This document shows positions 42,545 through 63,733 of a stretch of 64,000 nt of DNA, piece after piece (within the stretch, counting starts at the first letter, position 1; each line of letters begins with the position of its first letter). The translations under genes were made by a program, and so were the position numbers. The DNA comes from Cristatella mucedo (Eukaryota > Bryozoa > Phylactolaemata > Cristatellidae): the NCBI GenBank assembly GCA_009760855.2, contig WPIO01000214.1:81001-145000 (forward strand). The letters run 5' to 3'. Below the pieces are notes generated by a model. The model was given only the letters and a program-made list of their open reading frames with translations, ran no database searches and was not told the origin of the DNA.

Positions 42545-42670
42545 TCACAACGCCACCGTGCTTGCAGCACCAGTACCTTGACTGTTGCTCATCAGGGAGT
42601 TGTCACTTTGGGGCTGCAGCTTCTTGACTGTGTGCTGAGACAGCGAGCGAGCAATCATCTTGAAGAGGTC
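42545..42670 (-). CDS. RECQL5: RECQL5-like helicase, exon with second SRI helix
   Basis: On the minus strand an acceptor (CTTTCATGCAG, ending 42671) is followed by GAC CTC TTC AAG, reading DLFKMIARSLSQHTVKKLQP. The previous exon (61301-61503) ends in phase 0 with KKFASK, so the join is FASK-DLFKMIARSLS, matching the first-to-second helix transition of the RECQL5 SRI domain (human, as I recall it, FASKELFKGFARHLS). SRI domains bind the phosphorylated C-terminal repeat of RNA polymerase II. The frame stays open to a TGA at 42547-42545, which would end the protein 41 residues into this exon without a third helix. A donor-like CAAG|GTACTG near 42591 suggests that the exon may instead be spliced onward. 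The intron before it is about 18.6 kb. Confidence 0.7.
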   Translation of the reverse strand, partial: DLFKMIARSLSQHTVKKLQPQSDNSLMSNSQGTGAASTVAL

Positions 42671-42890
42671 CTGCATGAAAGCGTTGGCCAACCGATGGTC
42701 GCACATGACAGAGGGTAGGCACGGTGCTAGCGCAAACCAAACAGCGCACATCTGCGAACGTACATCACGATTGAAAGGCAAGCATGCAAGCAAGCTTGCA
42801 CGGTCTCGTAAAGGCGGCAGAGGTTTCAAGTACTTTAAACTTGCCAAGTGAGTGTCCTAATGCTTAAGCGCCGTGCATGACGAGCTGCAC

Positions 42891-42966
42891 GAGAGAGAGA
42901 GAGAGAGAGAGAGAGAGAGAGAGAGAGAGAGAGAGAGAGAGAGAGAGAGAGAGAGAGAGAGAGAGA
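42891..42966. repeat. (GA)n microsatellite
   Basis: Pure GA run of 76 bases. Confidence 0.97.
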
Positions 42967-43039
42967 CCGTTTGGCACGTGTGACTCGGCCGGAGCTGGTG
43001 TGCCTTGATGGGCAATAGCCTCTGGAAGCAATAGCCACC

Positions 43040-61300: not shown

Positions 61301-61503
61301 CTTGGAAGCAAATTTCTTCTGCTTGTAATAAGGCATGAGGTAGCGAACGACCAAGGCTGACATCTCGTTGAGGAGTGCCGACCCACGCTGTTCCGAAGTG
61401 GACCGGGTTATCGGTCCAGCAGCGCCTTCACGTGCAGGATGCGAGGAAGTGGCTGCAGCAGTCCTGTCGGCAGTCGCAGCACCAGTGGGAGCATCAGCAG
61501 CGA
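61301..61503 (-). CDS. RECQL5: RECQL5-like helicase, exon with first SRI helix
   Basis: The acceptor follows a strong pyrimidine tract (TTCTTCCTTTTCACTGACG, TTCAG ending 61504) and the donor is TCCAAG|GTTTGCC at 61300. The exon starts with two bases that complete a phase-1 codon and then reads AADAPTGAAT, ending in ALVVRYLMPYYKQKKFASK. The last part matches the first helix of the RECQL5 SRI domain (human, as I recall it, NVVVKCLTPFYKEGKFASK). SETD2 also has an SRI domain, but its sequence at the KFASK turn differs. The part before the helix is low-complexity linker. The exon is 203 bases and its phases fit the exons on both sides, which is strong evidence for the model. Confidence 0.82.
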
Positions 61504-62547
61504 CTGAACGTCAGTGAAAAGGAAGAAATGAATGCTTGCTAAGCAAGTGCATGCCACAGCAAGCGTTTTTTGCCAATCATGGAATGCCTCTAGCATTCGA
61601 CGACCAGCAACAAGCTGCAATTGTTGCTCCTAGTGCACAGTGGCAACACGTCAAAAAAAACACCTAGACACACCTAAGGGCCGAGTCACAACTGTCAGAG
61701 AGCACGAGGTCACGAGAGTAACAAACAGAGAGCACAGAGAACACAGCGAGAAGGCCTAGACAGAGCCGTCAGGGAGTGCCACACTGGCGGCCGGCCTGCT
61801 CGTCCTCACCACAGACATAACGGGTGGTGACTTGAGAGTCTCGCAAGCCTGCAAGTTCAGGATGGCTGCCACAAACACGCTTGCCTGCAGAGCTCTACAG
61901 GCTGCTAGGCAGCATGAGCTGGATGATAAATGCGCGCCATCCCTATTGGCGATCACGACTCGTAAAAAGCGATCCCTTGGAATGAGCCTGAACACCACCA
62001 CGAAGAAATTATGCATTAATTCCACTCCATGAACAGCCGCCGAGTCCGTGCCGAATAAGCGACAAGCTAAGATTTTACGCTTTAGTTTTTCATTAAATGC
62101 TGGTCGGGCCCTGCCCACTTGAGAACATCTTGCTGGTCTTATTTAAAAAAAATTTTGCTGGGACTCCCCCAAGATGGAAATCCTGGCTTTGCCAATGGCC
62201 AGGCGCATTCCTAACTGAAAATTCCACAGGAGTTCCTTTGTCACTACGCTTAGCTCAGATCCAACGGTTGCATATCATAGCGGCAACAAGACTGCAGCTG
62301 AGACGAAAGCAAGAAAGTGGACTAGCGGAAGCTGCCCAAGTGCAGTGGCTGCACAGTGGCAGCAGCAGCAAAAAAAGGCAGCACTGCACGTAGCAGCTCG
62401 GACAGCAAGCTGCTGCTGCTGCTTCGGTGGCCACCAGCCACGCAGCGTAAGCGGAAGCAGCAGAAGAGAGGAATTGACAGCAGCAGCGGCAGCAGCCGAA
62501 GAGCCAGGGAAGCGATTGCGGCGGCAGCAGCAGCAATTGCACCCCAC
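61504..62547 (-). other. Intron (1,044 bp) of the RECQL5-like gene
   Basis: Lies between a phase-1 donor (GAAG|GTGGGG) and the acceptor at 61504. No repeat family or further exon recognised inside; the open minus frame 61756-62118 shows no known domain. Confidence 0.7.
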
Positions 62548-63733
62548 CTTCGTCGTCGGCAATCGTCAGCAGCTGATCCGGACCAGGAGAGCCACCTCTA
62601 GAGCTGCCGTCAGCAGTGCCAGCATCGTCGCCATCGCCGGCCGCAGCAGCAGCAGCAGCAGCAGCAGCAGCAGCAGCAGCAGCAGCCTCCTCCTTGCCGG
62701 GTGTTCGCGGCTTGCGCCACAGGTCGATGAGCGTGGTGGTCACTGCCGTGCGCCTCGGCCTCGCATCACCTCCTGCGCTCCTGCGCTCGTGGCGGCTGGC
62801 GCGACCGCCCGACTCTTCCTTCTCCTCTACCGGCGTTTCAATACTGAACTGAACGCGCCTTCGCTGCTCCTGCTGCTGCTTGGCATTTGCTTGCGACGAC
62901 TCGCCGCCACCGCCGCTCCGGCGACTGGCTCTGCCCAGGGGCGGCCGCGAGTCGGCATGCCGACTCGCGGCAGCAGCAGCCGCCGCCGACTCGGGCTCTC
63001 GCTCACCGACCGGTGCCGCCACCGCCGGCTTTGCTGCCGCCAGGACGCTGCTTCCTCCACCGTCTCTGTCCTTGGCGACAGAACCGGCGTGAGCAGCCGG
63101 CTGCCGCGGCGGCTTTGCGGTGGCAGCGGCACGGCCGGCTGCAGGCAGCTTCGGCTCGATGGCTGCTTCTGCTGCGCGGCAGGTGTCGAGGTAGGCGGAG
63201 GCGGTGACGAATGGGCCGACGCCGCCTGCAGCGCCGGCGGTGCCTCGAGGGGCGACAGCGGCGGCGGCGCTCTCGCGGCCGCTCGTCGCAGCAGACGCGC
63301 CGGCGCCGAGCTCGGCAGTCGACTCGACTTCGGAGCGATGGCCACTGCCGCCATCTGTGGCTGCCCGCGTGACAGTCTCGGCAGCGGAGGGCTGGTCATC
63401 CAGACCAGGGCGGCGGCGGTGGTCGCACGGGCGATCCACTGCTGTCGCCGAAGACGCAAACGTATCGAGCGAGCCGTGCAGCCGGTCCAGCTTTGTCGCT
63501 TTCTTGATGTCAGTGACGTATCTCACGACGGCCATTCGATAGCTATCAACGGTCGTGCACTTTGTGAAGGATTCATACTCGAGTGCTGCAGCGGCTGTCG
63601 TGACGTGCGAGTCGTCCGCGCTCTCCGAGCCGTCGTCTGCGCTCAGTGCTGCCGGGACTCGGCGCTGGCCGCGCAACGACGCCATGTTGGCTGCCAGGGC
63701 ACTGCGGATCATCTCGTAGCACCGCTCTCTGGT
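62548..63733 (-). CDS. RECQL5: RECQL5-like helicase, exon with IRI/KIX-like region and linker
   Basis: The acceptor TTGTAG ends at 63734; its TAG is an in-frame stop, so the exon cannot extend upstream. The exon reads TRERCYEMIRSALAANM, then EYESFTKCTTVDSYRMAVVR and YVTDIKKATK (63488-63583). The latter resembles the KIX/IRI region that binds RNA polymerase II in RECQL5 (human, as I recall, NLYKASVLKKVADIHRASK). About 300 disordered, Ala/Ser/Gly-rich residues follow, with RRVQFSI (a possible PP1-docking RVxF motif), TLIDLWRKPR and a long alanine run encoded by AGC repeats. The exon has 395 codons plus one base (phase 1), matching the next exon. RecQ5 helicases suppress recombination and restrain transcription. 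The helicase core must lie beyond the right edge. Without the SRI exons this assignment would be weak. Confidence 0.75.
62643..62686. repeat. (GCA)n repeat inside the RECQL5-like exon
   Basis: About 14 AGC units; read on the gene strand it gives an alanine run. Confidence 0.95.
62944..62971. repeat. 28-bp perfect palindrome within the coding exon
   Basis: GCCGCGAGTCGGCA and its exact reverse complement with no spacer. On the gene strand it encodes part of SRHADSRPP. Confidence 0.95.

Follow-up and report, generated by a model that had tools for sequence, protein, structure and literature searches.

Last recognisable exons of a RECQL5 gene in the bryozoan Cristatella mucedo, with SRI helices 1 and 2 on either side of an 18.6-kb intron

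The window analysed here is a stretch of 64,000 nucleotides from Cristatella mucedo (contig WPIO01000214.1, C127, positions 81001-145000, from an assembly of 572 Mb in 688 contigs), and it does not contain any N. On its minus strand lie three exons assigned to the 3' end region of RECQL5. The first is an internal exon of 1186 nt (63733-62548) encoding a KIX-like region and then a long alanine-rich linker with an F-x-T-A motif; it is preceded by ...ACCATTGTAG, with the acceptor TAG/ACC, and ends in phase 1 at the donor ACGAAG/GTGGGG. The second exon (61503-61301; 203 nt) is preceded by ...GACGTTCAG, encodes SRI helix 1 (LNEMSALVVRYLMPYYKQKKFASK), and ends in phase 0 at the donor TCCAAG/GTTTGC. 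It is followed by an intron of 18,630 nt with GT...AG borders (61300-42671) and by the third exon (42670-42545; 126 nt including the TGA), which has ...TTTCATGCAG on its acceptor side and encodes SRI helix 2 (DLFKMIARSLSQHTVKKLQP) plus a short tail. When joined, the three exons form one open frame of 504 aa followed by TGA, with GT/AG borders and compatible phases, and the minus-strand coordinates and phases originally predicted (phase 1 at 62548/61503, phase 0 at 61301/42670) all hold. The same prediction described the exons as short and hidden by longer frames, which does not apply to exon 1, where the coding frame is open for 492 aa versus 508 aa on the opposite strand. Scans of the window for tRNAs and Rfam families gave no matches. 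A SoxB-type gene is also present on the minus strand (8187-9054), with an HMG box that shares 87.7% identity with a typed HMG-box sequence and a Pfam SOXp match in another frame; this gene apparently has an intron directly past the HMG box.

The joined protein matches the Pfam SRI domain (PF08236) at 7.3e-12 over Pfam positions 2-51 of 78, while each half taken alone falls below the 23.5-bit cut-off (exon 2, 9.8e-5 and 23.0 bits; exon 3, 0.18 and 12.5 bits). Among solved structures, the best match of the joined protein is human RECQL5 (2.1e-4), with the KIX and SRI stretches collinear and query residues 420-483 aligned to human residues 891-955 in the SRI stretch. A 54-aa SRI peptide searched against PDB at E<=10 returned two distinct sequences, both RECQL5 (5.4e-6), and the SRI is identical to human RECQL5 910-955 at 22 of 46 residues. 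SRI helices 1 and 2 are present by Pfam, by PDB match, and by identity to the human protein. Pfam positions 52-78 are without a match, and the predicted reproduction of the RECQL5 SRI domain by the FASK-DLFKMIARSLS join, confirmed when the joined translation was searched against Pfam, extends to helices 1-2 and not to the rest of the domain. A match of this length is expected, since RECQ5 is described in a review as resembling SRI helices 1 and 2 only (PMC7073763).

Evidence for the KIX-like region is weaker. The first 91 aa of exon 1 match the RECQL5 KIX chain 4bk0 weakly (E=0.0014), and query residues 27-86 align with human RECQL5 558-618, the KIX (0.9 alone within the full human chain). Pfam yields only a sub-threshold TFIIS_M match at this place, and a single-sequence structure model has a pLDDT of 48.7, too poor for a fold search. 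In the linker, the candidate RAD51-binding motif PFVTASAYLD (63214-63185, minus strand) aligns with human PFQTATELME, which contains F666; human residues 662-705 and F666 are reported to be used in RAD51 binding (PMC7073763). The RAD51-type F-x-T-A motif thus seems to be kept, judged from this alignment, with the qualification that F.TA occurs by chance in 4.25% of 2000 linker shuffles and that the pattern was picked after the sequence had been seen. A second, weak and speculative candidate is the PIP-like motif TTTLIDLW (62740-62717, minus strand), for which the human counterpart would be SQSIARFF at 761-768; MAFFT does not align the two, and a loose pattern drawn up afterwards is matched in 0.55% of 2000 linker shuffles.

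The gene runs on upstream of the window, so that the three predicted exons stand as parts of a longer gene. An upstream stretch (C127:144001-204000, the first 1000 bases of which overlap the window) was also searched, and tblastn with a typed human RECQL5 sequence located helicase exons on the same minus strand, in human order, from extended window coordinate 87487 down to 70966. Four of the tblastn pieces correspond to human residues 38-384, one to 411-477, and one to about 11-44. Six exon pieces were compared with Pfam: DEAD is above the cut-off in two, Helicase_C is above it in one and below it in another, RecQ_Zn_bind lies just below it in one (22.8 of 25 bits), and the 34-aa first piece has no match. 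The largest upstream exon is closer to human RECQL5 (3.2e-40) than to BLM (4.8e-20) or WRN (1.4e-17), and the best match of the zinc exon is likewise RECQL5 (1.1e-5). This RecQ helicase core, closer to RECQL5 than to BLM, WRN, or RECQL1 and on the same strand, indicates that the window exons form the 3' end of RECQL5, and the identity originally proposed agrees with these comparisons and with the PDB result. No counterpart of human residues 385-410 or 478-548, the latter range including the brake helix, was found by tblastn in the window and the upstream stretch; some of the sequence separating exon 1 from the zinc exon is unreadable because a 5000-base run of N adjoins the window end (C127:145001-150000; extended coordinates 64001-69000). 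Across the whole genome, a RecQ profile gave 22 matches, on C221 (6), C127 (4, the RECQL5 locus), C155 (3), and C507 (6), with weak matches on C55, C658, and C110 (one each). A search for SAP30BP synteny gave no convincing match. A lamprey globin query, run with no positive control, found nothing, and a lamprey VLR query found 47 matches, none above 45% identity, which seem to be common leucine-rich proteins. A RecQ zinc-domain-like match (E 0.025) located 35.6 kb below the start of the window was set aside; its open frame (CFYTTSLKAVRETYDRCAVVKKILQTHRVRYEERDVS...; stretch L012, about 5340-5541, minus strand) appears to resemble a glutaredoxin-domain cysteine-rich protein.

In standard notation, a splice-acceptor variant written c.2806-2 places the start of an exon at c.2806. 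By the numbering of the human chain, c.2806 is the first base of codon 936, between K935 and E936 and so between FASK and ELFK, in phase 0. A germline variant at this acceptor (c.2806-2, NM_004259.6) has been reported in humans (PMC5992580; also PMC10453775), and the human exon therefore starts at the same codon and in the same phase as the 61301/42670 join. The human numbering used is consistent with c.2828 being given as Arg943 in the same variant table (PMC5992580); the label K935VfsX in a review is slightly off codon 936 (PMC10453775), and the base change is written A>G in one paper and T->C in the other, with an identical position (PMC5992580, PMC10453775). Although it concerns one intron position only, this human variant is the strongest support for the join and is independent of the scans of the window. 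The split SRI, which the original prediction had implied to be strange, is simply how RECQL5 is built, and the only local feature is the length of the intron: the whole human gene is given as about 40 kb (PMC10453775), compared with 18.6 kb for this single intron.

The scans of the window bear on whether the FASK/DLF join could be a chance alignment, at a site that only resembles a splice site within a long stretch between genes. When human helix 2 was scored at each of the 4142 minus-strand AG sites in 61300-1, position 42670 came first with 38 and the runner-up had 16; at AG sites, none of 100 shuffled helix-2 queries reaches 38 (highest 30). Helix 2 is, however, short by itself. If no AG is required, 42670 still ranks first for the human query, with its score of 38 lying between the 95% point (34) and the maximum (46) of 200 column-shuffled profiles, and a two-sequence profile of human RECQL5 and SETD2 scores 23.5, below its own 95% point of 24.0 (maximum 27; 200 shuffles). 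Helix 1 is clearer: its best place in 42671-63733 is exon 2, at 65 versus a shuffled maximum of 34 (200 shuffles). The suggested mapping of a RECQL5 protein onto the window succeeded in part, in that a tblastn search with human RECQL5 (E<=10) picked up SRI helix 1 (0.011) and not exon 3 or the KIX part. Several of these scans used a typed human RECQL5 sequence, whereas the matches of the joined protein, the SRI peptide, the first 91 aa, the largest upstream exon, and the zinc exon rest on database sequences. Given the identical intron position and phase in the human gene, a chance join is considered highly improbable.

The SRI domain is common to several proteins, and the two halves could in principle come from a different gene with this domain, for instance SETD2, with which they share the likeness of helices 1-2. 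A six-frame SRI profile search of the whole genome returned one match, elsewhere, on C88, which we take to be SETD2-like (LTHGIMEKERKKYESMEDVEVTDLVKSKTKGYIKAYMEKFGE; stretch L017, about 5490). This separate locus differs from the one in the window in that its SRI runs on to include helix 3 (Pfam positions 31-77). The likeness on C88 starts at LTH, so the SRI there seems to be cut by an intron as well, at a different place from that in RECQL5. With the only genome-wide match lying on C88, RECQL5 alone recovered from PDB by the window SRI peptide, and RecQ helicase exons lying upstream in the same orientation, an origin of the window SRI from SETD2 or a similar gene was rejected as very unlikely. 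The same search passed over the RECQL5 locus, which shows that an exon-by-exon search loses a domain cut by a long intron; in this one test, the predicted ease with which such exons are missed was realised.

Where the gene ends is less certain. Human RECQL5 (RECQ5beta) is described as ending at residue 991, with a C-terminal PIP at 964-971 (PMC7073763), whereas the three-exon model ends in about 20 residues (SDNSLMSNSQGTGAASTVAL) in which a PIP box was not found. Exon 3 might not be the last: a donor-like CAAG/GTACTG lies beyond the loop that follows SRI helix 2, and with 42577 as the final exon base it could splice in phase 1 to a further exon carrying such a PIP box. Searches of about 123 kb downstream did not yield a helix-3/PIP-like peptide above shuffled controls: the best score, 31.0, compares with a median of 28, a 95% point of 33.05, and a maximum of 44 in 200 shuffles, and a three-sequence profile reached 18.7 against a median of 16.3, a 95% point of 22.0, and a maximum of 26 (200 shuffles). 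An ungapped scan gave a best score of 22, compared with 23 for a plus-strand control and 18-33 for 15 shuffled maxima, and a pattern search for a helix-3/PIP exon gave 13 candidates, of which the 4 above window coordinate 5000 included none that was convincing. The minus strand of 42576-1 contains six PIP-like cores, two of which (21588 and 24760) combine a phase-1 AG with an open frame, and neither is convincing; QNLLFEYY at 30874 was rejected as a PIP exon for want of a usable acceptor. An ATTAAA 485 nt past the TGA of exon 3 is weak evidence for a 3' end at this point. These scans would miss a divergent exon; a further exon is considered rather unlikely. A C-terminal PIP is, in our judgement, not required to define the RECQL5 family. 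That the gene ends directly past SRI helix 2 in this species, with loss of the human-type C-terminal PIP and the RNA polymerase I-binding tail, is put forward tentatively, as a reading somewhat short of probable.

The intron itself was predicted to be packed with transposons. Repeats cover at least 31.7% of it (5900 of 18630 nt, a minimum, counted from matches inside the same 204 kb), mainly as one 4.7-kb block (49970-54664), so that LINE and other repeat sequences are indeed present but are concentrated mostly in one place. Within this block lies one of two LINE copies with a Pfam RVT_1 domain (50459-52516, plus strand); the other is at 14115-16207 on the minus strand. The copies are 98.9% identical over 1920 nt (the latter at 14115-16033), which suggests that the LINE was recently active, and one copy keeps a 619-aa open frame. 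A 30-bp tandem array of 20 copies (54604-55203) has open frames in all three plus-strand frames. Peptides such as PLQAVVIAVKALLSLYK at 41217, 48383, 58350, and extended coordinate 73685 (minus strand) mimic SRI helix 1, probably represent a dispersed repeat, and could mislead domain searches. An apparent second SRI helix 1 at 73685-73632 (tblastn, E 6.1) was discarded on account of the similar peptides at the other three positions.

In conclusion, the RECQL5 gene end is real, was read correctly in the original prediction, and is ordinary. Judged by homology, the three exons are very probably the last recognisable exons of a RECQL5 gene that would work like its human counterpart, with helicase exons upstream, a weakly matched KIX-like region, a RAD51-type F-x-T-A, and SRI helices split by the 18.6-kb intron at the human codon and phase. 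The likeness to human RECQL5 takes in the RecQ helicase core, SRI helices 1-2, the RAD51-type motif, the intron placed in phase 0 at codon 935/936, and, more weakly, the KIX-like region; the long alanine-rich linker and the short end are differences. In published descriptions of the human protein, the IRI/KIX binds the body of polymerase II, the SRI contributes further binding when the polymerase is phosphorylated, and the RAD51 motif aids the removal of filaments (PMC7073763, PMC12440807); the IRI gives most of the polymerase binding, and loss of the SRI is reported to have only a minor effect (PMC12440807). SETD2 SRI helices 1-2 are described as binding the phosphorylated CTD (PMC7073763). 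By homology, a transcript spliced from 61301 to 42670 would encode a protein that docks on the body of RNA polymerase II through its KIX part and grips the Ser2/Ser5-phosphorylated CTD tail with its SRI helices; contact between its F-x-T-A motif and RAD51 would allow the translocase to strip RAD51 from DNA. Read-through of the exon 2 donor would stop the protein at FASKVCLCL*, past helix 1 only, and splicing of the 18.6-kb intron is therefore probably needed for CTD binding. If the C-terminal PIP is truly lost, contact with PCNA, if any, would rest on a PIP-like motif in the linker. The value of the locus lies mainly in being a check on gene models, and by itself it opens no new biology; the intron position and phase shared with human suggest that the SRI has long been split in RECQL5.
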